Origin: Deltaproteobacteria bacterium
GTDB taxonomy: Bacteria; Desulfobacterota; Binatia; UBA9968
Assembly: GCA_016193465.1 (NCBI GenBank)
Contig: JACPSE010000013.1
Location: 1-35,422, forward strand
DNA length: 35,422 nt
Direction: 5' to 3'
Part shown: one piece after another, positions 9,233 to 35,422 of the stretch
Position numbering within the stretch: the first letter of the stretch is position 1
Layout of the letters: every line of letters begins with the position of its first letter
Notes under the pieces: generated by a model
Seen by the model: only the letters and a program-made list of their open reading frames with translations
The model's database searches: none
What the model was told of the DNA's origin: nothing
Program-made: the position numbers and the translations under genes

Positions 9233-9250
9233 GGTTTTCTCCTTAGGAGA

Positions 9251-9315: not shown

Positions 9316-9320
9316 ACGAA

Positions 9321-19546: not shown

Positions 19547-22062
19547 CCCACGTGATGAGCCACTTCTTTCTCTGAAAAATCCAACTCTTTTCGAACAGCG
19601 ACTTTCCGATCTCCTTCCAGCCCCATCTCCATGGGCGGCTTGAAGCGGCGCAGCCGCAAAGCATTGCTGACCACGGAAACCGAACTGGCCGCCATGGCGG
19701 CGGCGGCGATGACCGGCGACAGCAGCAGACCAAAAAAGGGATAGAGAACTCCGGCCGCCACAGGGATCAGGGCCGTGTTGTATCCAAAGGCCCAGAAGAG
19801 ATTTTGTTTGATATTGCGCATGGTGGCCTTGGACAGGGCGATGGCCGTGACCACCCCTCGCAGGTCACCGGACATGAGGGTGATATCCGCCGCCTCCATG
19901 GCCACATCGGTGCCCGTGCCAATGGCAATCCCCACATCGGCCTGCGCCAGAGCAGGCGCATCGTTGATACCGTCGCCTACCATGCCAACAACGTAGCCTT
20001 CTTCCCGCAGCTTTTTTACCTCCCTTGCCTTATCTTCGGGTAGAACTTCGGCAAGTACGCGATCAATTCCCACTTGCTTTGCTATTGCCTCTGCAGTGCG
20101 CCGGTTGTCGCCGGTGATCATCACCACCTTAAGGCCAAGCTGGTGGAGCTGATGTGCCGCCTCGACGGAATTGGCTTTAAGCGTGTCCGCAACGGCAATA
20201 ATCCCTGCCGGCCTCCCGTCTACCGTCACGTACATCGGTGTCTTGCCCTGCTCCGATAACCTCTGAGCCTCATCCTCGAGCCCGTTGAGAGAGATTCCTT
20301 GTTCAACCATTAATTTTCGGTTCCCCACGACGACCCTATGGCCGTGAATGCGGGCTGAAATTCCCTTTCCGGGTATGGCGGAAAAATCTTGCGGATCGAA
20401 AAGCCCGACGCTTCTTTCCGTAGCGCCTCGCACAATAGCCTCGCCTAATGGATGCTCCGATCCCCGTTCAGCCGACGCTGCCAGCACAAGCAGCGTCTCT
20501 TTGTTAAAGCCATCCACAGCCCGCACATCGGTCAAAGCCGGCTCCCCTTTTGTTAAGGTTCCCGTCTTGTCAAAGATCAAGGCTGTAAGCTTGTGCGCTG
20601 TCTCCAACGCTTCGCCGCTACGAATCAAGATACCGTTCTCTGCTCCCTTGCCTGTCCCGACCATGATGGAAGTAGGGGTGGCCAAACCTAGCGCGCAGGG
20701 ACAGGCAATGATGAGAACGGCCACGAAGTTGAGGAGGGCATAGGTTAAGGCGGGCGCAGGACCCCAGAGATACCAGATAATGGCGGTGACGGTAGCAATG
20801 GCGATGACTGTCGGCACGAAATAGCTCGTGACTTTATCCACCAGGCGCTGTATAGGCGCCTTGGAACCTTGTGCCTCCTCCACCAATTTGATGATCTGGG
20901 CGAGCACGGTGTCCTTGCCGACTTTCGTGGCCGCAAACTTAAACGCTCCTGTCTTGTTGATCGTAGCGCCGATGATTTCATCGCCGACCTTTTTATCCAC
21001 CGGCATACTCTCACCGGTGATCATCGACTCGTCTATGCTGGAGTATCCCTCGCGAATAATCCCATCCACCGGAATTTTCTCTCCGGGCCGTACCAGGATA
21101 AGGTCTCCCGGAACTACCTGCTCCACGGGGATGTCCTGTTCTCTCCCATCTCGGACGACACGCGCGGTCTTGGCCTGCATGCCCATGAGCTTTTTGATCG
21201 CCTCAGAAGTCCGCCCTCGGGCTATCGCCTCCAGATAACGTCCCAGCAGGATCAGCGTGATGATGATGGTGGAGGTGTCAAAATAAACCTCTCGCGCCAC
21301 TCCTTGAGCCTCGAAAAACGAGGGAAAGAGGATAAGCCCGATACTGTACAGGTAAGCAGCGGTTGTGCCGACAGCGATCAAGGTATTCATATCCGAGGTC
21401 CTGTGCTTCAGTGCCGCCCATGCCCCCTTGTAAAACTGCCAGCCGACCCAGAACTGGACGGGAGTCGTGAGAATCCAGACAACAACGAAGTTCTGCAGGA
21501 GATCGGGAACCCAAGGGAAAAGAGAGGGATAGCTGCCGAAGAAAACCGGAATGCTGATCAGCGCGCCGACAGCAATTTTGACCCTCAGCTCTTTTACTTT
21601 GGCCTCGTGATCGGCCTTTTCCCGGTCAACTCCTGCTTCCTCCAGCGGAAGGGCCTCGTATCCCGCTTCCGCCACAGAACGACTTATTGATTCCACATCC
21701 AGCACACCTGGCAGATACTCAACTACGGCCTTCTCGGTTGCAAAATTGACGTTTGCCTGGAGAACACCATCAAGGCCGCGTAACACTTGCTCAATTTTGC
21801 CTACGCAGGAAGCGCAGCTCATTCCTCGAACGCCTAAAGTAACTTTCTCCGTGAGCACCTCATAACCCGCGTTAGACACGGCCTTAACGAGCTGTCCTGG
21901 AGCTACTTGAGTTGATTCGAAACGCACGGATGCCTGCTCAGTCGCAAAATTCACCCGAGCCTCCCGCACACCTGAAACCTCAGACAAGGCCTTTTCAATA
22001 TGCGCCACACAAGACGCGCAGCTCATGCCTGTAATCTTTAGGGTAAGCTCTCTCTCTGCCAT
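19543..22062 (-). CDS. copA: Copper-exporting P1B-type ATPase with two N-terminal metal-binding domains
   Basis: 839 aa, inner membrane. Two HMA domains each carry GMSCASC (first at residues 12-18, second about 70 residues later). The pump core has all P1B motifs: TGES in the actuator, [13 protein letters not shown] in the transport helix, [10 protein letters not shown] with the phosphorylated Asp, SEHPLG, and [10 protein letters not shown]. The CPC motif and Cys-Cys HMAs indicate Cu(I) export. AAAGGAGG lies just before the ATG at 22062; the open frame upstream is non-family and overlaps the small Cys/His gene. Its likely control is the MarR-type regulator whose operator precedes the small gene. 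The last codon overlaps the PII relic. Confidence 0.95.
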
Positions 22063-22151
22063 CACGACCTCCTTTATAAGTTTTGGTAGCGATTCCAATA
22101 CCTGCCGATCTCTCGATGCTATCTCGAAAGCCGGTAACCTATCGCCCGCGC

Positions 22152-22313
22152 TCAATGGCAGCTCTTTCCCTGCCCTTCCGATTCCTCCGGTGCCTCCTTC
22201 TTCCGCCGAGAAAGGTGCCCCGCCCCACAACAGCCAAACCCCAGGGTATGCATCCCGACAAACGCCAAAACGAGAACAATCCAAAACCAGTTATTCTGTA
22301 TAAACTCAACCAT
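22152..22313 (-). CDS. 53-residue single-span membrane protein with GCCGAGH motif, copA partner
   Basis: A small gene with AGGAGG upstream of its ATG (22313). One membrane helix ([17 protein letters not shown]) is followed by [13 protein letters not shown] and a charged tail ending KSCH. The Cys-Cys, His and Met residues at the membrane edge could hand metal to or from a pump. Short proteins of this look (DUF2933-like) are common before copper ATPases. It is the first gene after the operator at 22330 and 89 bp before copA, so the two are probably co-transcribed. Confidence 0.75.
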
Positions 22314-22329
22314 TACATGCCTCCTATTA

Positions 22330-22344
22330 GTTCGATTACCGAAA
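22330..22344. promoter_or_regulatory. Operator-like palindrome before the small membrane protein and copA
   Basis: GTTCGATTACCGAAA matches 12 of 15 positions of the perfect palindrome before the MarR gene (22825), with the same 6-3-6 layout. It lies 17 bp upstream of the start of the small gene, between it and the MarR stop. It is best explained as a second binding site of the same regulator. Confidence 0.55.
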
Positions 22345-22377
22345 TATCCACAATTAGGACTATCTGGAGAATTTTTT

Positions 22378-22821
22378 TTACTTTTTTACCGACCCCACAG
22401 CCTTCCCCAAGGCATCAAGCAAGGCATCCTGCTCCGCCGGTTTCAAGGCATCCATCATGCTAATTATCATTCCCATCTCGGCTTCCAGAAGTTCCTGATA
22501 GACCTTTTCCCCTTTTTTATCGAGCTCCACGTAAACCTTGCGTCTATCTTCCTCATCATCCCGTGTCCGCTTTACACACCCCTTGGCCACTAACCGGTCC
22601 ACGACCCCGGTCATGCTGCTCAGCACGAGCCCGCATCCTTTCGCGAGCTCGCTCATCGTGCATCTTCCGTTCCTACCCAGGATGTTACAGGCGAAGAGTT
22701 CGCTGCTGCTTAGCTCTGCCCCTGGTCCGTCGAGGGAGGGGCGGAGGTAAAAGCGCTTGATTAGCTCGTGCATGTAATCATCAAGCAGCTTAAGTTTGTC
22801 GCTTGCGCTTCGCTTCGCCAT
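22378..22821 (-). CDS. MarR-family regulator of the copA unit
   Basis: 147 aa, cytoplasmic. The winged helix is clear: CTMSELAKGCGLVLSSMTGVVDRLVAKGCVKRTRDDEEDRRKVYVELDKKG, with the DxRxxxVxLTxxG-like wing. The flanking helices form the usual dimer. Cys residues in the recognition region and in the wing (KGCVKR) might respond to thiol or metal stress, but that is inference. It sits just upstream of the small membrane gene and copA on the same strand. The perfect palindrome GTTCGACTATCGAAC lies four bases before the ATG, so it probably represses itself and the copper genes. No Shine-Dalgarno is visible; the leader is very short. Confidence 0.88.
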   Translation of the reverse strand: MAKRSASDKLKLLDDYMHELIKRFYLRPSLDGPGAELSSSELFACNILGRNGRCTMSELAKGCGLVLSSMTGVVDRLVAKGCVKRTRDDEEDRRKVYVELDKKGEKVYQELLEAEMGMIISMMDALKPAEQDALLDALGKAVGSVKK

Positions 22822-22824
22822 ATA

Positions 22825-22839
22825 GTTCGACTATCGAAC
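22825..22839. promoter_or_regulatory. Perfect 15-bp palindrome, MarR operator
   Basis: GTTCGA, CTA, TCGAAC is an exact inverted repeat covering the predicted transcription start and ribosome-binding region of the MarR gene. A 12/15 copy lies at 22330 before the small gene and copA. The pairing of one regulator with two similar sites supports direct control. Confidence 0.65.
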
Positions 22840-22846
22840 AATTCGT

Positions 22847-22875
22847 AAAATAAACTATTTTGACCCCTCTGTCAA
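22847..22875 (-). promoter_or_regulatory. Sigma-70-type promoter of the MarR gene
   Basis: On the minus strand TTGACA (22875-22870) and TATTTT (22852-22847) are separated by 17 bases. The predicted start lies at the near edge of the palindrome at 22825-22839, so a bound regulator would block it. The -35 box overlaps the stop of the YHS relic. Confidence 0.65.
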
Positions 22876-22975
22876 GACCCCGGAAAAAATTCCCAGGGTT
22901 CCACGTACTTCTCTGGATCTTTTTGAAAAGCCCGCTTACAGGCTTCAGTGCAGAAGTGGTATGGTTGCCCTAGGA
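22872..22975 (-). pseudogene. C-terminal relic of a YHS-domain metal-binding protein
   Basis: The frame reads VLGQPYHFCTEACKRAFQKDPEKY and ends at a TGA. This is the second half of a YHS domain (YHFC-x3-C with the DPEKY tail), usually found with copper and heavy-metal ATPases. The first half with its CGM motif is absent: upstream in this frame is a TGA and then the hairpin at 22995. No usable start codon precedes the conserved part, so it appears to be a truncated remnant. Confidence 0.65.
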
Positions 22976-22994
22976 CTCATCTTGCCTCCCGCCC

Positions 22995-23021
22995 CTGGAG
23001 GGGGACCTGGTCCCCCTCCAG
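22995..23021. repeat. Perfect 12-bp stem-loop between two small genes
   Basis: CTGGAGGGGGAC and GTCCCCCTCCAG form a perfect 12-bp stem with a CTG loop, 11 bases after the stop of the small secreted-protein gene. An outer pair CCCTAGG (22968) and CCTAGGG (23026) flanks it. On neither strand does a T-run follow, so it is not a classic terminator; it may be a REP-like or mobile hairpin element that replaced the first half of the YHS gene. Confidence 0.6.
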
Positions 23022-23032
23022 AACGCCTAGGG

Positions 23033-23338
23033 TTAGTTAGCGTTCCTATTAACGTCCCGACGGCTTTCCTGTCGACGGAGTTGGATTTCCTGAGCATCGG
23101 TCATGATTTTGCCTCCCGCACCAACAGGACCACTGACAATTCTCCACCCGTTCATATCGCCATCAGCAAAGTCCCGTATGATGTGGACGCTAGCCGTTGG
23201 GAAAAGCTGCCTTGCCTCGTCTGCATTCGAGGCATTGACACACACCTCGGTCCCGTACCGCTGCGTCTGAGCCGCCGCTGTCTCAGCCCAAGGGAGGACA
23301 AGGGCCAGGGTTAGAGCCACCAATAGCAGTTTTTTCAT
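23033..23338 (-). CDS. Small secreted protein, unknown
   Basis: 101 aa with a clear signal peptide (MKKLLLVALTLALVLPWAETAAAQ). The mature part of about 78 residues has one cysteine (EVCVNASNADEARQLFP) and a GWRIVSGPVGAGGKIMTDAQEI segment; no family recognised. AAAGGAGG lies nine bases before the ATG at 23338; the GTG three codons earlier is too close to it. It stands in the copper/heavy-metal region, so a periplasmic stress role is a guess. Confidence 0.6.
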   Translation of the reverse strand: MKKLLLVALTLALVLPWAETAAAQTQRYGTEVCVNASNADEARQLFPTASVHIIRDFADGDMNGWRIVSGPVGAGGKIMTDAQEIQLRRQESRRDVNRNAN

Positions 23339-23642
23339 CGTTTTCACCTCCTTTCTGCCCGTTTTCTATTTGGTTAATACGAGGGAAGGGGGCTGAATAC
23401 GACGCTCTACGCGGCTGGGGCAAGTATTCGACGGCGGGTAGAGAAGCCTGAACTAGCCAGGATTTGAGGGACGCCTTAAAAGAGGGACAAGCAACCGTCT
23501 CCGCTCATAAAACATGCAGCCAATGCCACTTTCTTAAGCAGTATCTTTGTCCGAGCTGACTTTCTCACTTTTATTCTCCAGTGATATCAGTATCTTTTAC
23601 TGCCTGGTTTCTCTGGCATGGAGGTTGCTCTACATTCGATGC

Positions 23643-24002
23643 GTGACGGCGCAAGCAAAGGGAAAAAATGCAGCCTGGGTTATTTTCTTAGCTATCCTCT
23701 TTTGGCACACCCCTATCTATTCAGATACGCTTGAGGAGAAATGGTGCGGAAAGCTCTATGAAGAGTCCCTGGAAAGAGCCAAGAACGCCCTCCAGGAAGG
23801 AAAACGCGAAGAGGCCGTCCGCTTTCTCCTCGATGCCGATGCGATCATTAAGCGCTGTTCGAGCTTCCCCGAGCGACCCCATTTGGAAAATCAGGAGAAG
23901 GAACCGGCTCAAGCTTTTTACTCTGCCGGGCGAGATCTCACCTGGAGTGCTCTTGAAGAAGAGCATCGATCTCTTTGGGATCAACGGCCTGGCCTGACTT
24001 GA
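23643..24002 (+). CDS. Possible exported helical protein on the opposite strand
   Basis: 119 aa from a GTG, or up to 151 aa from a TTG at 23547. After a hydrophobic signal-like stretch (AAWVIFLAILFWHTPIYSDT) the sequence is helical and TPR-like: KLYEESLERAKNALQEGKREEAVRFL, followed by two cysteines. The residue pattern looks coding, but no ribosome site is visible and the last 65 bp overlap the convergent gene at 23938. It is the only plus-strand gene in the last 22 kb. Start and reality both uncertain. Confidence 0.45.
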   Translation: MTAQAKGKNAAWVIFLAILFWHTPIYSDTLEEKWCGKLYEESLERAKNALQEGKREEAVRFLLDADAIIKRCSSFPERPHLENQEKEPAQAFYSAGRDLTWSALEEEHRSLWDQRPGLT

Positions 24003-24207
24003 GCTGATCGATAATTCTCCTGAGCTTCGCCTGGCGGAGCGCCAGAACGCCCGTCGGCCCTCTTGTTCGGAGCTGCCAGTCGGTCTGGCTTAACATCTCC
24101 TCCAACCGGGCCATAGGCTTGGGATCCGCAGTCCGCTGTTGAGCCCAAGCAGGCATTGAAAAGAGAAGGGCCAGGGCGATTGCGGGAAGAAGCTTAACTA
24201 CCTTCAT
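23938..24207 (-). CDS. Small secreted protein after the sigma/anti-sigma pair
   Basis: 89 aa with a signal peptide (MKVVKLLPAIALALLFSMPAWAQ) and a helical mature part (ARLEEMLSQTDWQLRTRG, LRQAKLRRIIDQLKSG). AAAGGAG lies before the ATG. It follows the anti-sigma gene on the same strand, 44 bp away. Small periplasmic proteins in such places can modulate the anti-sigma factor (compare CnrX or heavy-metal sensors), but no metal ligands are seen here, so this is only a thought. Confidence 0.65.
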   Translation of the reverse strand: MKVVKLLPAIALALLFSMPAWAQQRTADPKPMARLEEMLSQTDWQLRTRGPTGVLALRQAKLRRIIDQLKSGQAVDPKEIDALLQEHSR

Positions 24208-24251
24208 ATCGGTCTCCTTTCTCTAAACCTTGTGTTTATTCATGTCATGCC

Positions 24252-25166
24252 CTAGGTTGCCGGGGAGAAAATTTGGCGGCGAATAAAGAAGCCCAAACTT
24301 AACCCTATTAGGGACCCAACATACGTTCCAAGGGCCGCGAAGGCTATCAGGCCGAGGCCATGGTTGTGAGTTGAACCCTGCAGGTAGATGGCAGGGGAGA
24401 GTAAGATCGTTACAACGAGCGAAGCCAGAAAGAGATTGTCTGATGAGTGAGAAGTTCTCCTGGAACCAAAGATGAAGGCGCCGACGAAAGACGCAAGGCA
24501 ACAGTGAATCCACCAGCTTGCAACAAAAGTATTCCCCAAGCCAAAGAGGTAGCTGCTTGCGACCGCAACTTCCTGCGCGGCTGATAGCGCCAGCCATCGC
24601 AGCGAATCTACTTCGTAAGCCAGAAAGGAGATAGCCAAGGTCAGAGGCGTGGTCGAAATCGAGGAGGGCACCACCATGTTGAGGCGAGGAAGTTTCTCGC
24701 TTGTCTCTTTGAAAATCAGCCAAAAGCAGCCAGCAAAAAGCATCCACCAGAGGCTGAAGAGCACAATAAGTATGTAGCGATGATGAATCGTGGGATCAAA
24801 CAGGCTACGGGTCAGACCGTATGCCGCCCCTGTCATTGCTAACCCGGCTGCAAAGGGGGTAAGCAGCGACCAGATCCCTTTCATTGGGATCCTCGCGGCC
24901 CAAGGCAACAGGGATTTTTCTTGTCTCAGGTGGCCGAGAATCGTCTCCCGAGTTTTCTCGTATAGCTCCGCCGGAATCTCAGGGGCAGGCAGAGAATCAA
25001 AGCTTTGCCACTCCTTGGCCAGTTCCACCTCTTTAGCGATACAAAAGGCGCATTGAGCCAGATGGTTATCCAGGAACCGCTTCTCCTCAGAAAGAAGCTC
25101 CCCAGTGATTTTCTTAACCAGCAAAGACTCAGAATCTTCGCAGATTTTGTTTTGCCTATGATTCAT
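24252..25166 (-). CDS. Membrane anti-sigma factor with zinc-binding N-terminal domain
   Basis: 304 aa. Residues 1-60 form a ZAS-type anti-sigma domain with DNHLAQCAFCIA (His-x3-Cys-x2-Cys). Six or more membrane segments follow from about residue 100 on (LLTPFAAGLAMTGAAYGL, YILIVLFSLWWMLFAGCFW and others). The ZAS domain would hold the ECF sigma factor until a signal, often thiol oxidation or metal, releases it. The gene starts 11 bp inside the sigma gene, so the two are coupled. Confidence 0.82.
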   Translation of the reverse strand: MNHRQNKICEDSESLLVKKITGELLSEEKRFLDNHLAQCAFCIAKEVELAKEWQSFDSLPAPEIPAELYEKTRETILGHLRQEKSLLPWAARIPMKGIWSLLTPFAAGLAMTGAAYGLTRSLFDPTIHHRYILIVLFSLWWMLFAGCFWLIFKETSEKLPRLNMVVPSSISTTPLTLAISFLAYEVDSLRWLALSAAQEVAVASSYLFGLGNTFVASWWIHCCLASFVGAFIFGSRRTSHSSDNLFLASLVVTILLSPAIYLQGSTHNHGLGLIAFAALGTYVGSLIGLSLGFFIRRQIFSPAT

Positions 25167-25719
25167 CGAGGCACTCCCGCAGGTGATGCATGGCTCTTTG
25201 GATTAACTGATTAACCGCCTCTGTTGAGCGCCCCATCACCCGCGCGATCTCCTCGTACCTGAGACCCTGGAGCCGGCTTAAGATAATTGCCTCCCTTTGA
25301 TCATCCGTAAGTTTTGCCAATGCCTCCTTAAAAGAGAGCATCTGGTGAAAACCGTTTGGTATCTCTATGGAATTTTCATCTTTCTCGGAGACCTGAGAAA
25401 CTCCCAAACGTGTTCTGGTCCTGAGCCTATCCCGGATCAGGTTGTTAGCGATAGTATAAACCCACGCCTTGAAAGGCATCTCCGGCCGGTAAAGAGATCG
25501 GCCTTTGTGCAAGCGCAAAAAAGTCTCCTGGAAAAGCTCAGCACAGTCATCCGGTTGCCCCAGTCTCCGCATAAGAAACCCGTATATTTTTTTGCCGTAC
25601 CTGCTATAAATCTCCTCAAAGGCGGCCTCGTCGCCGCTCTGATAGCGCTTCATCAACTCCTCGTCGCTAAGCGAGGAAGCCAAACCTTCTCCGTTACTAA
25701 TACGAAACTGGGGTCCCAT
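25156..25719 (-). CDS. ECF-type sigma factor at the end of the Cus operon
   Basis: 187 aa. Region 2 is clear (DEAAFEEIYSRYGKKIYGFLMRRLG, DDCAELFQETFLRLHKG, AWVYTIANNLIRDRLR), as is region 4 (KLTDDQREAIILSRLQGLRYEEIARVMGRSTEAVNQLIQRAMHHL). The arrangement CusC-CusB-CusA-PII-sigma-antisigma on one strand, with only three bases between the PII-like stop and this ATG, suggests the sigma factor is made with the efflux pump and may feed back on it. The first 16 residues are not conserved; a later start is possible. Confidence 0.88.
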   Translation of the reverse strand: MGPQFRISNGEGLASSLSDEELMKRYQSGDEAAFEEIYSRYGKKIYGFLMRRLGQPDDCAELFQETFLRLHKGRSLYRPEMPFKAWVYTIANNLIRDRLRTRTRLGVSQVSEKDENSIEIPNGFHQMLSFKEALAKLTDDQREAIILSRLQGLRYEEIARVMGRSTEAVNQLIQRAMHHLRECLDES

Positions 25720-25722
25720 ATA

Positions 25723-26046
25723 CTACGGGTCTAGGAGTTTTTTTACCTTTTCTTTTGAACGAATGTTGACGACTGTGCCAAGATCAAAAACCGATAAGAT
25801 CCCATCCCCTTCTATCCCAGTAGAGGCATGCTCAGTAATCAACTTCACAGCCTTATCTACCTGATTTTCCTCTACAATTGTCTCCAATTTGTGATGGCCC
25901 CCGTGAATCAGCGGCTCATAGAGGTGCCACTCCTCTCCATAGCCGCGTACGCGGGAAACTGTGCAGCCACTGACGCCAATGCTTTTCAGTGCCCGTGCAA
26001 TGGATTCAACCTTACCTGATCGGACCACTGCCCATATCATTTTCAT
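25723..26046 (-). CDS. PII-like signalling protein of a metal-efflux operon
   Basis: 107 aa, a ferredoxin-like GlnB/CutA-type fold: MKMIWAVVRSGKVESIARAL, then HHKLETIVEENQVDKAVKLI, then GILSVFDLGTVVNIR. The T-loop region (RGYGEEWHLYEPLIHGGHH) lacks the uridylylated Tyr context of classical GlnB and is rich in His, so it may bind metal or a nucleotide instead. PII-like genes are frequent next to CusA/CzcA pumps. GGGAG precedes the ATG. A truncated homologue lies after copA. Confidence 0.8.
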   Translation of the reverse strand: MKMIWAVVRSGKVESIARALKSIGVSGCTVSRVRGYGEEWHLYEPLIHGGHHKLETIVEENQVDKAVKLITEHASTGIEGDGILSVFDLGTVVNIRSKEKVKKLLDP

Positions 26047-26066
26047 AGCGCTCTCCCGTTTTCATA

Positions 26067-29000
26067 TTACTTTAGCGTCCAGCCTTCTGGCTGGTTGCCG
26101 ATTTCGTCGGGTTTGGAAGATAAACCTCCCATTCCCCAACCCCTCCACAAGGCGTAAATGGCGGGGATGACCGCCAGGGTGAGCACTGTAGAAGTGATCA
26201 TTCCTCCTATCATCGGAGCCGCAATTCTTTTCATCAGGTCCGCCCCCGATCCATGGGACCACATGATGGGTAAAAGACCGGCAATGATGGCTGTAACCGT
26301 CATCATCTTCGGCCGGACGCGATGCGCCGCCCCTTCGATGATCGCCTCGTAAAGGTCCTGGAGCGTGGACATGGAACCTTCCCGGAGTCTTCTTTCGTAG
26401 ACCTCATCGAGATAGACGATCATGACAACACCGGTTTCCGCCGCTACGCCAGCCAGGGCGATAATCCCCACCCAGACCGCCACGCTGAGGTTGTAACCCA
26501 GCAGGTAAAGAAGCCAGACGGCGCCGACGATGGCGAATGGAACGGAGAGCAATACGATGAAGCTCTTCGCCACCGACTGAAAGTTCATATAGAGAAGGAC
26601 GAAAATGATCAGCAGGGTGAAGGGCACGACATAGATCAGCCGCTCCTTGGCCCGCTGCATGTATTCGTACTGCCCGCTCCATACCAGAGTATACCCGGTG
26701 GGTATCTGGACCTGCTCAGAGACCTTTTTTTGGGCCTCTTCGACGTAGCCGCCAATGTCTCTACCTGTCATATCCACATAAACATAACCGGAGAGCTGGG
26801 CGTCTTCATCCCGGATCATAGCGGGGCCCGAGGTAAGCCGAACCTCCGCCAGTTGCCCCAATGGGACCTGGGCGCCGTTCATGGCCGGAATCAGGACCCG
26901 TTTTAGTCTGTCCACGTCGTCCCGGAGTTCCCTCGCATAGCGCACGCTGACAGGATAGCGTTCTCTCCCCTCAACGGTCGTAGTGATACTCTCTCCGCCA
27001 ATGGCTGACTCGATGATCATCTGGACATCGTCAAGGACCAGGCCATAGCGGGCGATCTCCTCCCGCTTCAAGTCAAAGTCGAGGTAGTAGCCTCCAGTCA
27101 CCCTCTCCGCGTAGACTGTACGGGTTCCCGGGATCATTTGAAGGGCCCCCTCGAGGTTTTTACCGATCTCCTCGATTTTGCTCAGGTCGGGGCCGAAGAT
27201 TTTGATGCCGATCGGGGTGCGAATTCCCGTAGAGAGCATGTCAATGCGGTTTTTTATCGGCATGGTCCAGGCGTTAGCCACCCCTGGAAGCCGGAGCTTC
27301 TTGTCCATTTCGTCGACAAGTTCATCCCATGTGATGAAGCGCGTTTTACCGAATACGAAGTCGCCAACCCACTTAAGCGGGCGCGGCCAGTGGGAGCGAT
27401 CCACCGCCACCTTGCGCCACTGGGACTCAGGCTTCAGCATAACCGTGGTCTCCCCCATGCTGAAGGGCGCCGGGTCCGTCGAGGTTTCCGCCCTGCCTGC
27501 CTTGCCGAAAACCCATTCGACCTCAGGGAAGCTTTTTAAGATCCTATCCTGCATCTGAAGGAGCCAGGTCGCCTGTGTGATCGATATTCCGGGCAGAGTC
27601 GTGGGCATGTAGTAGATCATGCCTTCGTTCAAGGGCGGCATAAATTCGGAGCCCAGGCGCGAAAAGGCGGGATAGGTGAAAATCAAGGCCGCCACTGAGA
27701 GGAAGATGACGCTTTTCTTAAAGCGCAGCACCCAATGGACCACAGGAAGATAGAGAGCGATCAAGAACCGGTTCACCGGATTTTTAGCTTCCGGGTGGAT
27801 GCGCCCGCGAATCAGCAGGACCATGAGCACGGGAGCCAGGGTGACGGAGAGCAGGGAGGAAAAGAACATGGCAAAGGTCTTGGTAAAGGCCAGGGGTTTA
27901 AAGAGCCTTCCCTCCTGCGCCTCGAGGGTGAAGACCGGTAGGAAGGAAACCGTGATGATGAGCAGAGAGTAGAAAAGAGGCTTTCCTACCTCCTTTGCGG
28001 CTTCGATGATAACCTGATTGCGGCTCCCGCGCCTCCCGCCTTCCTCCCATTTCTCCAGGCGCTTGTGGGCGTTCTCTACCATGACGATGGCGGCGTCGAC
28101 CATCGCCCCAATAGCAATGGCGATCCCGCCGAGGGACATGATGTTGGAGGTGAGGTTCAGGTAGTACATAGCGATAAAAGAGATGATGATGGCGATTGGA
28201 AGAGTGAGGATGGCCACCAATGCGCTGCGGACGTGGAAGAGAAAGATCAGGCAGACCGCGCTGACGATGAGGCTCTCCTCGATTAGTTTTTCCTTTAACG
28301 TGGCGATCGATTTCAGGATGAGGTCAGAACGGTCATAGGCGGTCACGATCTTTACGCCCTGAGGAAGCGAAGGCTCGATCTCCTTGAGTTTTTTCTTTAC
28401 CCGGTCGATTAAATTAAGCGCGTTCTCCCCGTAGCGCATGACCACGATGCCGCCCACAACCTGGCCCTTTCCGTCCAGTTCAGCAATCCCCCGCCGCATG
28501 TCCGGCCCCAGGGCCACGCGCCCGATATCTCGCACGAGAATCGGAGTGCCCCGACCATCGCTCCCCACGGCGATCATCTCGATATCTTTTATCGACTTGA
28601 TATAGCCACGCCCGCGCACCATGTACTCCGCCCCGCTGAGCTCGACGGAGCGGCCGCCGACATCATTGTTGCTCATGCGGATGGCATCCACGACACTCTT
28701 GACCGGGAGGCGATAGGCCGACAGGCGGTTTGGGTCCAGGTTCACCTGATACTGGCGGACAAATCCGCCCAGACTCGCTACCTCCGCCACCCCCTCTACG
28801 CTGGCGATCTGGTAGCGCAGATACCAGTCCTGAAGGCTTCGCAACTGAGCCAAATCATATTTTCCGCTCCCATCCACCAAAGCGTAATAAAATACCCAAC
28901 CGACCCCAGTAGCGTCAGGACCCAGCGTGGGAGTAACCCCTCGAGGGAGTCTATTCTGCACCTGGTTAAGATACTCGAGGACGCGGCTTCTGGCCCAGTA

Positions 29001-29309
29001 GATGTCCGTGCCGTCCTCGAAGATGATGTAGACGTAGGAATAACCGAAATCCGAGAAGCCGCGCACGAACTTGACCCGCGGAGCGGAGATCATGGTAGTG
29101 ACGATCGGGTAGGTCACCTGATCTTCCATGATCGTCGGGTTTCGTCCCATCCAGGTGGTGTACACGATCACCTGTACGTCCGAGAGATCAGGAATCGCGT
29201 CCAGTGGGGTGTTCTTCAGCGCCCAGATTCCCCCGGCGCTGAGGAAAACGACCATGAGGAAGACAAAAAAGGTGTTTTTTGCGCTTCCTTCGATAATCCG
29301 TTCAATCAT
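26067..29309 (-). CDS. cusA: CusA/CzcA-type heavy-metal RND efflux pump
   Basis: 1080 aa with twelve membrane segments and two large periplasmic loops. The start IERIIEGSAKNTFFVFLMVV, the VRGFSDFGYSYVYIIFEDGTD block and the TM4 motif GAMVDAAIVMVENAHKRLE are HME-RND signatures; this TM4 form is typical of the monovalent (Cu/Ag) CusA group. It would take metal from the periplasm and adaptor and pass it to the outer-membrane channel, driven by protons. It starts ten bases after the adaptor gene. Metal choice is inferred. Confidence 0.93.
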   Translation of the reverse strand: MIERIIEGSAKNTFFVFLMVVFLSAGGIWALKNTPLDAIPDLSDVQVIVYTTWMGRNPTIMEDQVTYPIVTTMISAPRVKFVRGFSDFGYSYVYIIFEDGTDIYWARSRVLEYLNQVQNRLPRGVTPTLGPDATGVGWVFYYALVDGSGKYDLAQLRSLQDWYLRYQIASVEGVAEVASLGGFVRQYQVNLDPNRLSAYRLPVKSVVDAIRMSNNDVGGRSVELSGAEYMVRGRGYIKSIKDIEMIAVGSDGRGTPILVRDIGRVALGPDMRRGIAELDGKGQVVGGIVVMRYGENALNLIDRVKKKLKEIEPSLPQGVKIVTAYDRSDLILKSIATLKEKLIEESLIVSAVCLIFLFHVRSALVAILTLPIAIIISFIAMYYLNLTSNIMSLGGIAIAIGAMVDAAIVMVENAHKRLEKWEEGGRRGSRNQVIIEAAKEVGKPLFYSLLIITVSFLPVFTLEAQEGRLFKPLAFTKTFAMFFSSLLSVTLAPVLMVLLIRGRIHPEAKNPVNRFLIALYLPVVHWVLRFKKSVIFLSVAALIFTYPAFSRLGSEFMPPLNEGMIYYMPTTLPGISITQATWLLQMQDRILKSFPEVEWVFGKAGRAETSTDPAPFSMGETTVMLKPESQWRKVAVDRSHWPRPLKWVGDFVFGKTRFITWDELVDEMDKKLRLPGVANAWTMPIKNRIDMLSTGIRTPIGIKIFGPDLSKIEEIGKNLEGALQMIPGTRTVYAERVTGGYYLDFDLKREEIARYGLVLDDVQMIIESAIGGESITTTVEGRERYPVSVRYARELRDDVDRLKRVLIPAMNGAQVPLGQLAEVRLTSGPAMIRDEDAQLSGYVYVDMTGRDIGGYVEEAQKKVSEQVQIPTGYTLVWSGQYEYMQRAKERLIYVVPFTLLIIFVLLYMNFQSVAKSFIVLLSVPFAIVGAVWLLYLLGYNLSVAVWVGIIALAGVAAETGVVMIVYLDEVYERRLREGSMSTLQDLYEAIIEGAAHRVRPKMMTVTAIIAGLLPIMWSHGSGADLMKRIAAPMIGGMITSTVLTLAVIPAIYALWRGWGMGGLSSKPDEIGNQPEGWTLK

Positions 29310-29318
29310 TTCGGCTCC

Positions 29319-30893
29319 TTATTGCTGAGTCACGACCCTGAATTTTTCCCGAATCTCTTTCTGGTTGGGGCGGCGGATTGTGACCGTTGCTTCCCATTCC
29401 CCTGCCATGGCAAGGTTGGCCTTGGCTTCGTACAACCCATCCTTGGATAATTTCCCGTCCGCTTTAGAAGGCGCCATGCCCGCCATAGTCATCTGGAAGA
29501 GAAATGCAACCTGGGCGTCCTTCACAACCTTTCCTGATTTATCGACGATCTTCAGCCGCACGATGTTCTCTCCCGCCTTGGGCGTCTCAGGTTGCGTGGA
29601 TACAGTTAGGGTCAGATCCTGAACTTTCTTCTCTTGGGGCCCGCTTTTCACTGGCGCGTCCATCTTCATGCCCTTCATCCCTTCCTTCCCCTGCGCGCCT
29701 TCCTTTTCCATCCCCGGCATGCCAGCCATTGCGCCCATCGCCTCTTTGAGCCGGCTTTCGGAATCTAAGAGAAAACTGGCGCTAGCAATAATCTGCTCTC
29801 CAGGGGATAAGCCGGAAAGGACCTCATAATAACTATCGAACTTACCCCCCACTATTATCTCGCGCGGCTCAAAGCGGCCCTGGCCCTTGTCGACAAAAAC
29901 AACCTTCCGTAGGCCGGAGTCCAGAACCGCTTCGTCGGGAATGGCCAACTTTCTGCCGGCCTCCATGTCGATCTCGATGTTGGCATACATCTCCGGCTTG
30001 AGCGTGAAGTCGTGGTTGGGAACCTCAAGTCTCAACTTGGCAGTGCGGGTCTTCTCGTCCAGGACCGGAGCGATCCAGGAAACTCGACCGGTAAAAACAT
30101 GTCCGGGAAAGTAAGAAAGGGCGATCTTGGCCCCCTGCCCCACACGAACGTAGGGAAGCTCAAACTCATAGATATCCGCATTCACCCAAACCGTGGAGAG
30201 GTCGGCAACGGTGTAAAGCTCTTTGTCGGGCATCACCTTCATCCCCTGGAAGGCTTCCTTTTTGATGACAAAGCCGTTTAGGGGAGAAAAAATGGTGAGA
30301 TTCTTTTGCGGCTGTCCGGTTTGCTCGATATCTTGGATCTCCTTGTCAGCGATATCCCAAAGGCGGAGTCTTCGCCGCGTGGCCTCCAGGAGGGATTGGG
30401 AGCCCGAACGGATCTCTTTGACCGAGCTGGAGCCGAGCGAATCCTTCGCCTGCAACGCCAAAAGATATTCCTCCTGCGTCGAGACTAGATCCGGGCTATA
30501 AAAAGTAAAAAGGGGCTGGCCCTTTTGGACGAGTTTCCCAGTGTAGTCAACAAAGAGCTTTTCAATCCAACCGTCCACCTTGCTGTAAACATGCGCCACT
30601 TTCGTCTCATCGTAAGTGACGATGCCGACAGTCCGGATCTTCTTCACCACGGGACGGACCTCGGCGACGGCGGTCCTGATGCCCACGAGTTGCTGCTTCT
30701 CGGGACTGACGTTGACCGACCCGGGGGCGTCTGCCTGCGAGCCGGTCTCTCCGTGTCCTGCCGTGGAGTGAGTCGCAGTGGGGCTCGATTGGACCACGTT
30801 CTTGTCACTTTGTCCCCACCAATAACCCAAGCCGACAAGGGCCAAGGCCAGAACAAAAATGCCAAATAGTTTTAAAACCTTTTTCCCATTCAT
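29319..30893 (-). CDS. cusB: RND periplasmic adaptor with Met-rich linker and extra C-terminal YtkA/FixH-like domain
   Basis: 524 aa, longer than usual (about 400). An N-terminal membrane/signal anchor (LFGIFVLALALVGLGYWWG) precedes the barrel-hairpin-barrel adaptor (VDGWIEKLFVDYTGKLVQKGQPLF, YTVADLSTVWVNADIYEFE). A linker rich in Met, Gly and Lys (GAMAGMPGMEKEG, MKGMKMDAP) looks like a copper or silver sponge. The last 100 residues form a separate beta-sandwich (VVKDAQVAFLFQMTMAGMAPSKADG) of YtkA/FixH type. AGGAGG lies before the ATG. Confidence 0.9.
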   Translation of the reverse strand: MNGKKVLKLFGIFVLALALVGLGYWWGQSDKNVVQSSPTATHSTAGHGETGSQADAPGSVNVSPEKQQLVGIRTAVAEVRPVVKKIRTVGIVTYDETKVAHVYSKVDGWIEKLFVDYTGKLVQKGQPLFTFYSPDLVSTQEEYLLALQAKDSLGSSSVKEIRSGSQSLLEATRRRLRLWDIADKEIQDIEQTGQPQKNLTIFSPLNGFVIKKEAFQGMKVMPDKELYTVADLSTVWVNADIYEFELPYVRVGQGAKIALSYFPGHVFTGRVSWIAPVLDEKTRTAKLRLEVPNHDFTLKPEMYANIEIDMEAGRKLAIPDEAVLDSGLRKVVFVDKGQGRFEPREIIVGGKFDSYYEVLSGLSPGEQIIASASFLLDSESRLKEAMGAMAGMPGMEKEGAQGKEGMKGMKMDAPVKSGPQEKKVQDLTLTVSTQPETPKAGENIVRLKIVDKSGKVVKDAQVAFLFQMTMAGMAPSKADGKLSKDGLYEAKANLAMAGEWEATVTIRRPNQKEIREKFRVVTQQ

Positions 30894-30908
30894 ATCTTCG
30901 CCTCCTAA

Positions 30909-30936
30909 CCTTTGAACCCTTTAACCTTTTGACCTT
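30909..30936. repeat. Short repeat series between the efflux channel and adaptor genes
   Basis: CCTTTGAAC, CCTTTAAC, CTTTTGAC and CTTTCAG follow one another, 8-9 bp each, filling the gap between the two genes. The unit resembles the TTTGAAC half of the arrays in the NXR locus (9251, 5363), so the same kind of sequence occurs 20 kb away in an unrelated operon. Confidence 0.6.
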
Positions 30937-32220
30937 TCAGGGAAGCTCCTTACCCACTGCCCGCTCCAGATCCGCGAGATTTTGCACCAGACCGACCTGG
31001 GCCCGAAAATAACCCATCCGCGCCTCGCGCAGGGCGCGCTGCGCTTCGAGAAGATTCACGAACTCTACTCTTCCAGTCTGATAGGCTGCCATCGCTGCTC
31101 TGAAGGAAAGATCCGCCTGGGATAAGAGTCCCTCGCGGTAAAGCTCGACAGACCTTTTGCCGGCCTGGACCTTGGCCAGAGATTCACCAATCTCCCTCAG
31201 GGTCATGTTCCTCATCGCATCTAGTTCTGCCTTCGCTGCCCGATTCTCTGCCAAGGCCTCTTCCACCTCGTAGTTGCGTCTGCCGATTGTCCAGGGAGAA
31301 AAGGGGATGGTGATGTTGACCATGGCCTGGTAACGGTTTTTCAACTGTCTCGTCATCTCGGTGGGCATCCACGAATAATCCCACCCGAGCATGAAGTCGG
31401 GAAACTTGCGGTTTTTGTCCGCAAGATCATACATCTTCTCTGCCCTCTCGACCCCTTGTTGGGCCCGTCTCACCTCTGGACGATCAACCAATGCGGCTTG
31501 CTCTAAATCCGGAAGAGTGAGGCTAGGCTCAGGGACTGCGAGTTCCCCGGGGATTTCAATAGAGATCTGCGGTGGCCGATTCAGCAAAGCGTTGAGCCTC
31601 ACCTCAGAGCTTCTTCTTTCCTCCTCAGCCAGGATGAGTTGATTCATAATCTCGCTCTGTTCAAGCAGGGCTTTAAAGACATCCTGCTGGGTCACCCGGC
31701 CGACCTGATAGCGCGCCTCGGTGGCTCGGATGATCGCGCGCATGATCTCCAATTGCTCGCGGTTAATCTCGATCATCTTTTGCGCCATGAAGAGATCCGC
31801 GTAGGTCATCTTGACTTTGGATATGATCTCCCTTTCTTTTGCCCGGAGTTCTTCCTCGGCCATCTTCGTCTCTTGCAACGCGATTTTCTCCTTGAGACCC
31901 AGTTTGCCGAAGAAGGGGACCTTCTGACGGATGCCGATCATGTTGTTGTTGGCCCTGCTCAAGTTCGTCGGATTTGAAAGAGGTACATCCCATGTCTGTA
32001 GAGCAATCTCAGGGTCTTCCAGGTAGGGGGCCTGTTTTGCTCTGGCACGCATGGACTGGAGGCGCTCGCGCAAGAAAGTGATCTCCGGGTTTTTTCCCGT
32101 GGCCTCACGGATCGCGTCCGAGAGACTCAGCGTCGCCGCGGATTCGGCTGCGAGTGCGCTCCACGAAAAGACCAAACTCAGATAAATAACCAGGGCGCTG
32201 ACGGAACACCGCTTTCTCAT
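30937..32220 (-). CDS. cusC: TolC-like outer-membrane efflux protein (CusC type)
   Basis: 427 aa with a Sec signal (SALVIYLSLVFSWSALA). The mature protein shows the duplicated coiled-coil pattern of the outer-membrane channel: LSDAIREATGKNPEITFLRERLQSM and, in the second half, FVNLLEAQRALREARMGYFRAQVGLVQNLADLERAVG. No N-terminal lipobox Cys is seen. It is the first structural gene of the Cus unit. The ATG at 32220 follows GGAGG closely; an in-frame ATG eight codons earlier is less likely. Confidence 0.88.
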   Translation of the reverse strand: MRKRCSVSALVIYLSLVFSWSALAAESAATLSLSDAIREATGKNPEITFLRERLQSMRARAKQAPYLEDPEIALQTWDVPLSNPTNLSRANNNMIGIRQKVPFFGKLGLKEKIALQETKMAEEELRAKEREIISKVKMTYADLFMAQKMIEINREQLEIMRAIIRATEARYQVGRVTQQDVFKALLEQSEIMNQLILAEEERRSSEVRLNALLNRPPQISIEIPGELAVPEPSLTLPDLEQAALVDRPEVRRAQQGVERAEKMYDLADKNRKFPDFMLGWDYSWMPTEMTRQLKNRYQAMVNITIPFSPWTIGRRNYEVEEALAENRAAKAELDAMRNMTLREIGESLAKVQAGKRSVELYREGLLSQADLSFRAAMAAYQTGRVEFVNLLEAQRALREARMGYFRAQVGLVQNLADLERAVGKELP

Positions 32221-32338
32221 GAAACCTCCGGTAACGCGAAACAAAAGCCGCGTTTCTAGAACTAATTTCTAAAGTAACTTCTCGGAACAACGAGACCCGC
32301 GCCATCAGCGCGAGCCGGCAGAGGATAGGGACGAGGTC

Positions 32339-32921: not shown

Positions 32922-34076
32922 TCAGAGGGCGTGATCAACGCCCTCATGGAGCAGCAAAACGATCATCATGATGTATCCAACGGCAAGACCCAATAAAAGG
33001 CTCACGGCTGCTAAGGGCTGGACGCTCAAGTCTTTTTCCCCTTTATTCCGCAAATATCGGACAGTCCAGACGATGAGAAGCGCTAGACTTGCAATGACCA
33101 CAAGATGCTTCCCGGCCATGAACAGCGTATAGCTCCTCCCAAAACGGACCTCTGAGAGACGGCTAAGGTTCCATATATAAGGCGGCAGGTAGAACGGCGT
33201 CCAGCGCACCATACTGGCAATGCCGGAGAGAGTCTGGATGATAAGCGAAGCCCACGAAAAGAGTAGATATCGGCCCGTCGATACGCCCCCAAAAGCGAGC
33301 GCCCATGCACTGCCTCCCAACCATATCCCAAATCCCAGGAGGTGAAGCCAACGGAGTCCTATGTCGGTCCATGCGTCACGCGTTGCAAGCAACCAGAAGC
33401 CATTGGAGAGAAGGGCGTCTTGACTCACCATATTCTGGCCACGAGGACCATCCGGACCCATAACGCCGCCCAATGAATGGGGTAGAGTTGGCCACAGGTC
33501 TGCGACCTCATGATAGAAAAGGAGGACAGCAGCCGCCAAGGTCGCTGCAATGCTGAGGGTCGCCCCAACAATAAGAAATATTTGCCGTAGCCTCGCCTCG
33601 TCCATGCGTCGTCGCAAATGCCACAGAGTAACCAGGAACGTGAGCGAAACGGCAAGCGCATACAGCCCAACCTTTACTGTTAGGACGACCGCATAGGTGA
33701 CACCATAGGGAATCTTTTCTAAGAAGGGTAGCAAAAGCAGGCTAGGTGTCTCCGCTATCCCGGCGCTCCATTCCATGTTGTAAGTCCCGGTAGCGAGAAA
33801 AACTAGGAAGAGTATCCACGAACTATAGAGGAGATGATCCAGACGAGGCTTGATTCCCAGCAGAAGAACTCCGGCAGTTAGACCTAACCAGAGGGCAAAA
33901 GCCAGCAGATGGGTCCACTGGACTGTTAGATGAAGCCACGTGCGCCAGCCCGTGAGCAGCTCAGGGTCAAGATGCTGTGCGACATCATGCCCGAGAGCTT
34001 TCGTTGAGGTTAAGAGGGAAAAGCCTACTAGCAGAAATAGAGTCCTAAGGAGGCTATCGCGCGCCCTCGGGCTCAC
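32922..34076 (-). CDS. CopD-like polytopic membrane protein coupled to the double-UGA gene
   Basis: 384 aa. A signal-like first segment (LLRTLFLLVGFSLLTSTKALG) is followed by about eight membrane helices. Two of them contain a repeated WxHLLxFxxWLG motif (VQWTHLLAFALWLGL and LRWLHLLGFGIWLGG), as in CopD-type copper proteins and some b-heme membrane proteins; the histidines could bind heme or copper. The GTG at 34076 uses the last base of the TAG of the preceding gene, so the genes are translated together. It may be the membrane partner of that protein, which is inference. Confidence 0.7.
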   Translation of the reverse strand: MSPRARDSLLRTLFLLVGFSLLTSTKALGHDVAQHLDPELLTGWRTWLHLTVQWTHLLAFALWLGLTAGVLLLGIKPRLDHLLYSSWILFLVFLATGTYNMEWSAGIAETPSLLLLPFLEKIPYGVTYAVVLTVKVGLYALAVSLTFLVTLWHLRRRMDEARLRQIFLIVGATLSIAATLAAAVLLFYHEVADLWPTLPHSLGGVMGPDGPRGQNMVSQDALLSNGFWLLATRDAWTDIGLRWLHLLGFGIWLGGSAWALAFGGVSTGRYLLFSWASLIIQTLSGIASMVRWTPFYLPPYIWNLSRLSEVRFGRSYTLFMAGKHLVVIASLALLIVWTVRYLRNKGEKDLSVQPLAAVSLLLGLAVGYIMMIVLLLHEGVDHAL

Positions 34077-35248
34077 TATCTCATTTTCCCTTTTTGCTCA
34101 CGCTTTGCCCCGTTAGAGTGACCGTGGGACGCCTCTCCAGCTTGCCCAATTAAATAGGGTGGATGATAAATAGACTCCCTTGATAGAGAGCCGACCCGAA
34201 TGTGGACTTGGTCGCTCATCCAGGTATCCTCGGTGACTCCCTTAAACTCCTCGCTTGGACCTACAAGAATGGCTATCTGGTAGGCCTTTCCCATCTCCCA
34301 GAGAGCATCGCCGAGGTCATCATTTTTGAGCGGAAAAGCGAATTCGTACTCCATAGCCTTGCCACTCTTCCTGTAGCCCACTGCTTTAATGTTGCTCTTT
34401 TTGTCCCCGACCAGGGAGGCAGAGGACATTCAGGTATGGACCCCTTGGAGCTTGCGCGGCCCGGGTTCCTTCTGCGCAGGCGACTCAGCAAGGAAGAAAT
34501 CTTCTACGCCTCTTACTGTTAGAAGCTTCACATCGTTAAAATCGCCGATCATGCCATGGTGTGGAAAATCTTTGAGCAGAAGGGCGAGCCAATTAGTAGT
34601 GTCTGCCCGCACGCCAAAATAGATTAGGCCATTGTGAATCTTGGAATAGATCTCGATCTTATAACGCTCGGGCCTGTAGGCGACCGCCTGCCCAGGCCCT
34701 CCTCAGCCATACTCTGTGACTTTATCCTTTGCCGTACCCACATGAATGACCTGGTAGCCGGCTCCCTGCCACTCCTCCTTATCAATTTTGCCGTCAATTT
34801 TCGGGGGCCCTCCCTCACGCGCGATAAAGTCGGTGTTGAATTGCAAATAGGGCAGTCGCTTGTCCTTTAAATCGGCCGGGTATTCTTTCGGATCGAACTT
34901 CATTTCCACGATTCCCGAGCCAAAGCCACAGCCTGGCCCGTAAACATCTCCCGTGATAGCCGAGACGTGGACGTGAGCATGATCGGTGGCAAACTTCATC
35001 GGACCGACATGAACACCGTAGGCCAGATCGGGCACGTGGGCATGGTACATGTAAACGAGGTCTCCGTGGTCGTAGCTGAAAGCCTCAAATTCCAGGTGCT
35101 CATAAGTCTTATGCTTTTCTTTCAGGTAGCGCTTGGCAATGGCTTCTGCCAACGCGCTCGAGATCTTGATATCCTTGGTCGCCACATAGACATTCCCGCG
35201 CTTATCGAAGTGCAGCGCGACGCCACCGGGACCCTGTTCGGTTCTCAC
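34076..35248 (-). CDS. PepSY-like plus CBM9/EB_dh-like protein with two in-frame UGA codons, probable double selenoprotein
   Basis: 390 aa if UGA at 34705-34703 (residue 182) and 34432-34430 (residue 273) are read as selenocysteine. Residues 25-110 resemble PepSY (KDIKISSALAEAIAKRYLKEK, then HAHVHVSAITGDVYGPGCG). From about 145 a CBM9/DOMON/EB_dh-like sandwich begins with KIDGKIDKEEWQGA; it runs through the first UGA (YKIEIYSKIHNGLIYFGVRA, MIGDFNDVKLLTV) and the second (KSNIKAVGYRKSGKAMEYEFAFPL). One domain thus spans both UGAs without a frameshift. Each UGA is followed by a hairpin with GGUC in the loop. GTG at 35248 overlaps the stop of the peroxiredoxin-like gene. No signal peptide is seen from this start, and the function is unknown. 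Confidence 0.75.
34395..34424 (-). promoter_or_regulatory. SECIS-like hairpin after the second UGA of the double-UGA gene
   Basis: Lower stem CTCT with AGAG, internal loop, upper stem TCCC with GGGA, apical loop TGGTCG. The loop begins 16 nucleotides after the UGA at 34430-34432 and contains GGTC at positions 18-21 after it. E. coli fdhF has GGUC in the same kind of loop, at about 19-22. Confidence 0.6.
34670..34699 (-). promoter_or_regulatory. SECIS-like hairpin after the first UGA of the double-UGA gene
   Basis: Outer stem GGGCCT with AGGCCC (six pairs), small internal loop, inner stem AGGC with GCCT, apical loop GGTC. The loop lies at positions 18-21 after the UGA at 34703-34705. The tetraloop and its stem geometry closely resemble the fdhF SECIS of E. 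coli as I recall it. Confidence 0.7.
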
Positions 35249-35422
35249 TCCCAAAGGATTGGAAAGGCGAGATTCAGCTCCATGGCCAGTCTGGATGCTT
35301 CCTCCGGTGTATCCATGCTCATTCCAAGCACCGCCGCGCCTTCGTCAAAAAATTTTTTCACGTGCGGTCGTAGCTTCACGAGCTGCTCGCGGCACATACC
35401 TCAGCCGGCGCCCATATAGAAG
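35245..35422 (-). CDS. Peroxiredoxin/thioredoxin-like protein with in-frame UGA in a UxxC motif, cut by the window end
   Basis: Only the C-terminal part is in the window. The frame reads MGAG-U-GMCREQLVKLRPHVKKF then AAVLGMSMDTPEEASRLAMEL and AFPILWE before a TGA. The UGA (35401-35403) stands where related AhpC/TSA proteins have the first Cys of CPxC (as in WCPFCREQL), giving a UxxC redox pair. The end is short for this family. The next gene begins in another frame with text that could be the missing tail (GGVALHFDKRGNVYV), so a frameshift is possible, though the 4-bp GTGA overlap also looks like normal coupling. Confidence 0.65.
35377..35391 (-). promoter_or_regulatory. Possible SECIS hairpin after the UGA of the peroxiredoxin-like gene
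   Basis: CGCGAG pairs with CTCGTG (one G-U) around the loop CAG, which begins 15 nucleotides after the UGA. If the closing G-C opens, the loop is GCAGC with G first. The distance is at the lower limit for bacterial SECIS elements, and the loop lacks GGUC, so this one is weaker than the other candidates. Confidence 0.4.

Follow-up and report, generated by a model that had tools for sequence, protein, structure and literature searches.

A very probable double-selenoprotein family with two conserved in-frame UGA codons, represented on a contig of an uncultured deltaproteobacterium

The contig JACPSE010000013.1 of assembly GCA_016193465.1, a metagenome-assembled genome (MAG) of a deltaproteobacterium of the Binatia lineage, was analysed over its complete length of 35,422 nucleotides (nt). 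This stretch, contig C10 of genome G000 in our numbering, is called the window below. Near its right-hand end lies a gene with two in-frame UGA codons (Table 1), which has relatives in nine other genomes. The double-UGA gene family is real. Judging from the sequences, we regard it as highly likely that the gene belongs to a double-selenoprotein family outside the catalogue of PMC13188914 and that both UGAs are decoded as selenocysteine (Sec). This reading rests on the conservation of the gene and not on compliance with a model of the selenocysteine insertion sequence (SECIS).

On the minus strand from 35254 to 34076 a single frame is broken only by the two TGAs and ends with TAG. The preliminary description of this DNA had traced the same frame from 35248, with the TGAs as its sole interruptions, and in this it was right; counted from 35248, the TGAs are residues 182 and 273. 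The start at 35248 is not natural. Relatives begin 39-45 codons further upstream with a signal-like stretch, and the start was misplaced because a junction with a foreign redoxin fragment replaces the true 5' end in the window.

Table 1. Positions of the gene, its predicted elements and associated features (window positions unless a locus is named)
Feature	Location	Strand	Remark
Double-selenoprotein gene body (predicted)	34076..35254	-	TAG stop 34076-34078; 5' end missing or replaced in the contig
UGA 1, predicted Sec, motif YG-U-GG	34703..34705	-	TGA in 9/9 covering copies
UGA 2, predicted Sec, motif HT-U-M	34430..34432	-	TGA in 9/9 covering copies
SECIS-like hairpin 1	34670..34699	-	GGUC loop 34682-34685
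SECIS-like hairpin 2	34394..34425	-	GGUC loop 34409-34412
C-terminal EB_dh/CBM9/DOMON-like domain containing both UGAs	34181..34834	-	transferred from residues 178-395 of the G005 model
N-terminal His-rich domain, weakly PepSY-like	34835..35248	-	structure comparison of a predicted model
AhpC/TSA-type redoxin fragment, in-frame TGA 35401-35403 (GAG-U-GMC)	35255..35422	-	joined to the gene at 35255-35257
CYCXC-type gene, TGA in HxxG-U-xIC	L028:7112-7636, L029:6474-7004, L030:7040-7633, L032:7141-7773		motif

Six of the nine relatives could be aligned in full and showed 44-79% identity to the copy of genome G005 or to that of the window. A protein search of 58 related genomes, the own genome included, gave three relatives of 74-77% identity, all of them interrupted by just two TGAs. 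The GTDB contigs were scanned with a four-row alignment and two peptide patterns, a match to one of the patterns being required; six of the 67 matching stretches encoded relatives, and three of these six came from genomes already found. The others were from a Methylomirabilota MAG (L031), a Deltaproteobacteria MAG (L032) and a Rokuibacteriota MAG (L033), with identities of 62, 48 and 54%, respectively, and of 62, 44 and 55% to the G005 copy. Profile searches were positive in four of 148 genomes of the class (own genome included), in five of 95 genomes of the phylum of G148 and in one of 394 of the phylum of G149, namely G149 itself. The own phylum gave matches in six of 395 genomes: the own genome, the G149 genome and four weak matches to the N-terminal domain only (15-17 bits). 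These four were rejected as relatives and left uncounted; one of them (L078) sits, by eye, inside a transketolase-looking gene. Several of the carrier genomes are groundwater MAGs by title.

The comparison thus comprises ten copies: those of the window, G005, G010, G015, G148 (L031), G149 (L032), G150 (L033), G232 (L069), G231 (L072), which ends after site 1, and G155 (L073), which consists of the C-terminal part only. Each site is TGA in all nine copies that cover it, and neither cysteine (Cys) nor tryptophan (Trp) nor any other standard residue occurs at either site among the ten. The preliminary description had asked whether Sec or Cys would align at residues 182 and 273 of homologues, unrelated residues or chain ends being what would speak against it, and the result came out in its favour. 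Apart from the G155 copy, none of the ten is interrupted by any further stop over the length read.

Both site columns are TGA in all eight copies that were aligned by codons. Selection was estimated for family-level pairs among the window, G005, G010 and G015 (six pairs, five of them with a computed ratio of nonsynonymous to synonymous differences, pN/pS). In these five pairs pN/pS was 0.12-0.23 upstream of the TGAs, 0.06-0.12 between them and 0.21-0.28 downstream. Synonymous differences per site amounted to 0.55-0.82 overall and to 0.62-0.78 in the stretches between and after the TGAs. Purifying selection persists from the first TGA to the second and beyond it. Given the low pN/pS together with the conservation of the TGAs, chance stops could hardly have survived.

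Most genomes of the family and the further carriers examined possess genes for Sec insertion. SelA scored above the cut-off in 11 of 12 family genomes, SelB in nine of ten genomes, SelD in eight of nine (each with one internal TGA) and tRNA-Sec in seven of ten, the genomes below it being G000, G002 and G005. The own assembly, G000, is the sole exception in the counts of SelA, SelB and SelD. Carriers examined were G005, G010 and G015 for SelA and these three plus G148, G149 and G150 for the rest; G231, G232 and G155 stand outside these counts. All examined carriers other than the own genome were over the cut-off (3/3 for SelA, 6/6 for SelB and for SelD). G005 gave no tRNA-Sec despite having SelA, SelB and SelD, and therefore single gaps occur in these MAGs. 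Two genes on another contig of the own genome (C192, L066) have TGA at the place of Cys; in one, for an AhpC/TSA redoxin, the motif is HW-U-PYC, and in the other, for a DUF3179 protein, it is TW-U-PLC. Both domain types are catalogued as Sec-bearing in PMC13188914.

It might be thought that in this lineage Trp is inserted at the TGAs, or that some general suppressor reads them, since Trp is chemically possible at both places and the own assembly is without sel genes. The codon usage of the family speaks against this: in the four invariant Trp columns of the eight codon-aligned copies TGG is used in 32 of 32 codons, and for this reason the Trp reading was rejected. Furthermore, the TGA of the own redoxin and DUF3179 genes directly follows a Trp (WUPYC, WUPLC), and SelB was over the cut-off in all nine other genomes examined. 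We give a Trp or suppressor reading practically no probability.

In the window GGTC occupies nt 18-21 after each TGA, as had been described, and hairpins close around both. The GGUC lies in a four-base apical loop 17 nt past the UGA, with folding energies of -19.2 kcal/mol at site 1 and -9.5 kcal/mol at site 2. Folding was done with nt 18-21 held unpaired, and 100 synonymous recodings of each element served as control; none of the 100 was as stable as the window element at site 1 and one of the 100 at site 2. Among all copies GGUC stands at +18 to +21 in six of nine site-1 and seven of nine site-2 elements (13/18 in total), compared with 37 of 2642 codons (1.4%) in seven copies, Sec sites included; the copies share ancestry, which limits how this recurrence is to be read. 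Fifteen of the 18 elements, both window sites among them, comply with the published bacterial SECIS model of PMC13188914 as coded here, with a limit of -7.5 kcal/mol. The recurrent GGUC at this position is a better signal than compliance with the model.

The second UGA is followed directly by ATG in all nine copies covering site 2, and in the window the open reading frame 34076-34429 begins at this ATG. Translation might therefore stop and restart at site 2 (TGAATG), giving the last 117 residues as a separate chain. The break would then fall within one predicted beta-sandwich domain. Moreover, site 1 is followed by Gly codons and not by a start, and the distance from the UGA to the conserved GGUC is equal at the two sites. 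A restart is accordingly very improbable.

A number of observations weigh against the reading of both UGAs as Sec. No Cys homologue was found among the ten copies, the genome searches having covered parts of three phyla, so the usual exchange of Sec and Cys cannot be observed; Cys-containing homologues are usual for bacterial selenoproteins and not required. Three of the 18 downstream elements miss the limit of -7.5 kcal/mol, and the 16 elements other than those of the window gave a mixed picture against synonymous recoding (0 to 71 of 100 recodings as stable). Compliance with the SECIS model says little by itself, because 18-69% of ordinary codons in eight copies satisfy it too. The view of the preliminary description that two SECIS matches argue against chance thus holds as regards the recurrence of GGUC and the conservation, and not as regards the model. 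Covariation, which it had suggested as a check, did not bear out the simple stem at site 2: a formal pair count over nine rows found no two-sided change in this stem, and control stems slid along the alignment scored as high or higher (those at +1 to +3 higher). Inspection by eye suggests another stem common to G150 and G155, in which a G-C pair is exchanged for C-G; it lies outside the formal count. At gathering thresholds Rfam had no match in the window or in L009-L011. Selection appeared less strict in six more distant pairs, with pN/pS of 0.25-0.59 before, 0.27-0.52 between and 0.38-0.63 after the TGAs, ratios that are rough since synonymous sites are mostly saturated at this distance. Two copies are irregular. 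Near site 2 that of G155 has one extra TGA and one extra TAG, and most of the gene is missing, through decay or bad assembly; that of G150 (Rokuibacteriota) can be read on into TGA 1 only if the frame is shifted before it, in the region of L033:6302, where assembly error or mutation would be the cause. Finally, selA, selB, selD and the tRNA-Sec gene were all below the cut-off in the own assembly, although it is rated 100% complete.

Some of these points would suit a pseudogene in which both stops are chance mutations: the further stops of G155, the missing sel genes and the foreign 5' end of the window copy. For the family as a whole this was rejected on the conservation of the TGAs and on purifying selection. 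Both TGAs are retained in nine of nine copies per site down to 44-48% identity, copies free of other stops prevail apart from G155 (and from the frame break in G150), and downstream pN/pS is low in close pairs. The probability left for a pseudogene family is minimal.

More weight must be given to the possibility that the family is real and the window copy itself dead, the sel operon having been lost and the 5' end deleted into a redoxin gene. The missing sel genes would fit, and so would the structure of the junction. The sequence from 35421 to 35255 aligns to a redoxin gene whose place in G005 is some 3.9 kb further upstream (intact counterpart L028:1708-2319, an AhpC/TSA protein with the identical TGA), and from 35257 on it belongs to the double-UGA gene; 3 nt are common to both parts and about 3.86 kb are absent relative to G005. 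A search of L028 with the 16-base junction sequence gave no match. On the other side, the junction is 165 bases from a contig end, and the TGA-at-Cys genes on the other contig are in good frame. The remaining frame of the window copy is undecayed, free of the extra frameshifts named beforehand as a sign of decay. In the congener G003 a single contig has selB, selD and the tRNA-Sec gene in a stretch of about 3.3 kb, and because of this clustering one assembly gap would remove all three together. The best tRNA-Sec matches of the own genome are ordinary tRNAs (8/10 matches examined). We read the absence of sel genes as an assembly gap because the genome holds other genes with TGA at a Cys place, and conclude that it would use Sec, with the sel locus missing from the assembly, though a loss is possible. 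The look for sel genes that the preliminary description had suggested thus gave none of the four over the cut-off in the genome itself, and SelB and SelD in six other carriers. The contig end is probably a chimera or a deletion that took the signal-like start, and a dead window copy appears unlikely, if by no means negligible.

The protein itself gave little in sequence searches. The window protein matched no Pfam family at E up to 0.1 and no NCBIfam model at E up to 1; seven members searched against Pfam at E up to 5 gave a single chance-level match (EF-hand_5, E 0.15), and the PDB contained no relative by sequence at E up to 5. Membership in EB_dh (PF09459) by sequence was rejected, there being no Pfam match, and the EB_dh protein encoded in the window itself (9321-10901) had no profile match to the double-TGA protein. 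The model of the full G005 copy has a mean predicted local distance difference test score (pLDDT) of 52, with a poor N-terminal half and a good core of the C-terminal domain. Residues 178-395 form a predicted beta-sandwich of the EB_dh/DOMON/CBM9 type, with Z scores up to 14.3; the best Foldseek match was 1i82_A (E 3.5e-5). The earlier proposal of a single CBM9/EB_dh-like domain spanning both TGAs is therefore borne out by the predicted fold and not by Pfam. The Sec residues would lie in conserved loops (216-228 and 307-315 in G005) modelled at low confidence, with pLDDT under 50, and part (268-274) of a conserved HHGM(I/T)GDFND loop is in a low-confidence region as well. Modelled alone, the N-terminal domain had as top structural matches 4exr, YpmB (two entries) and YpeB, with Z of 5.2-6.2 over 61-63 residues, which is below the safe level; we take YpmB and YpeB to be PepSY proteins. 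No Foldseek match to this domain was under E 0.5 (best E 0.56). In relatives a signal-like stretch precedes (A/G)CGG, the signal peptide and its cleavage being judged by eye.

Among known structures the C-terminal domain is alike in predicted fold to chain C of ethylbenzene dehydrogenase (2ivf_C; Z 14.3, root mean square deviation (rmsd) 3.4, 177 residues aligned) and chain C of nitrite oxidoreductase (7b04_C; Z 14.0, rmsd 3.2, 182 aligned), presumably the EB_dh-type heme b subunits EbdC and NxrC. It differs from them in having 11-13% identity and no Pfam EB_dh match; the new family adds two predicted Sec residues and the N-terminal domain, and heme binding is putative. Similar folds are found in dopamine beta-hydroxylase (4zel_B; Z 14.3, rmsd 2.5, 143 aligned) and in the cytochrome domain of cellobiose dehydrogenase (1d7b_A; Z 11.3, rmsd 2.9, 149 aligned), both of which we take to be DOMON domains. 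These are eukaryotic enzymes, at 12% and 7% identity, and we know of no Sec in them. The CBM9 modules 7nwn and 1i82_A are likewise similar in fold (Z 11.1 and 11.0) and differ at 10-11% identity. As to composition, the bacterial double selenoproteins MbdU (NF045648), MduS and TsoB have two Sec per chain as well, according to PMC13188914; the domains catalogued there for them are others, and the window protein had no match in NCBIfam. The CYCXC (seleno)protein (NF041379, PF13798) has one UGA in a UxxC-type motif and, by eye, no similarity to the new family.

We propose that both UGAs would be decoded by the ordinary bacterial SelA/SelB/SelD/tRNA-Sec system, each under the direction of a separate hairpin that follows it immediately and usually presents GGUC in its loop, 17 nt past the UGA. 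The complete chain would comprise a signal-like segment at the N-terminus that ends near ACGG, a His-rich N-terminal domain of weak PepSY likeness and a C-terminal domain of EB_dh/DOMON/CBM9 fold, with both Sec residues in conserved loops of the latter; the window copy would be the same gene, its 5' end cut by a contig chimera or deletion. We infer Sec insertion itself, export and a redox or metal role from sequence and context. As a best guess the protein is an exported redox or metal-binding protein, taking part outside the cytoplasm in redox reactions of thiols or of metals (copper-type), and its two selenols may form a redox pair or be ligands of a metal or heme. More tentatively, the two Sec residues and the HHGM(I/T)GDFND loop could come together at one site of the sandwich, binding a soft metal or heme or acting as a diselenide switch, with a CYCXC selenoprotein as co-exported partner; we think this specific arrangement doubtful.

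The neighbours of the relatives suggest extracytoplasmic thiol or copper-type redox work: TlpA/redoxin-type thioredoxins, SCO1/SenC, Rieske, DsbD-type, DsbA and Lgt proteins, a multicopper oxidase and a P-type ATPase. By a motif scan, a CYCXC-type (PF13798) gene with a TGA is next downstream in four of eight gene-bearing loci (L028, L029, L030 and L032) and was not seen there in L031, L033, L069 or the window. The gene of L028 is over the NCBIfam and Pfam cut-offs and that of L032 over Pfam only; in L029 and L030 the assignment depends on the motif. It is a possible partner of the double selenoprotein. The G149 copy ends in TGA (L032:7138-7140), in frame with the following CYCXC gene, and this TGA was read as a true stop. 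In L030 a minus-strand gene (10161-10463) has a TGA within GMT-U-SDC; its product contains an HMA domain and comes close to the UxxU metal-binding family (NF041115), scoring below the cut-off of that model. Window 32922-34076 (minus strand) and L028:7624-8826 (plus strand), both downstream of the double-UGA gene, are alike by eye and have no Pfam or NCBIfam match.

Elsewhere in the window, an operon-like region on the minus strand (4075-10901) encodes a 1169-residue molybdopterin oxidoreductase, a 4Fe-4S protein and a protein with EB_dh plus cytochrome c, a set that we take to resemble a type II enzyme of the dimethyl sulfoxide reductase family. Another minus-strand region (19543-32244) resembles a metal efflux locus: it encodes a heavy-metal P-type ATPase and an RND efflux pump with membrane-fusion protein and outer-membrane channel, and in between a sigma-70-family factor.

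PMC13188914, a 2026 review, lists 119 selenoprotein families or subfamilies, a few of them with two or three Sec, and mentions a Methylomirabilota MAG with 63 predicted selenoprotein genes. Table 1 of the review has no CBM9, EB_dh or DOMON entry, its 'hypothetical protein' entries having been judged via the NCBIfam search alone. The statement in the preliminary description that no selenoprotein of this architecture was known agrees with these catalogue domains and with the lack of an NCBIfam match. No description of the family was found in the literature searched, though one may stand in the text or supplements of Haft 2025 (mSystems) or of Deng 2026 (Cell Reports, on groundwater MAGs), and searches combining CBM9, EB_dh or DOMON with selenoprotein gave no relevant paper. 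The authors of deep-Sep state that the method may not identify selenoproteins without Cys homologues (PMC12013277); this limit would apply to the double-UGA family because no Cys homologue was found.

The genes described here very probably represent a new double-selenoprotein family, as their sequences indicate. Standard gene calling would split such a double-UGA gene into pieces, and filters requiring Cys relatives may discard it. The family would add double Sec on a fold absent from the one comprehensive catalogue consulted, that of PMC13188914. It suggests that uncultured bacteria possess Sec-only extracytoplasmic redox or metal proteins. With two equally spaced SECIS elements per message it would be a test case for the way in which SelB supplies both UGAs of a single chain and, if the two Sec residues do share one site, metal or heme would be held there by selenolate, in a role that Cys does not fill.

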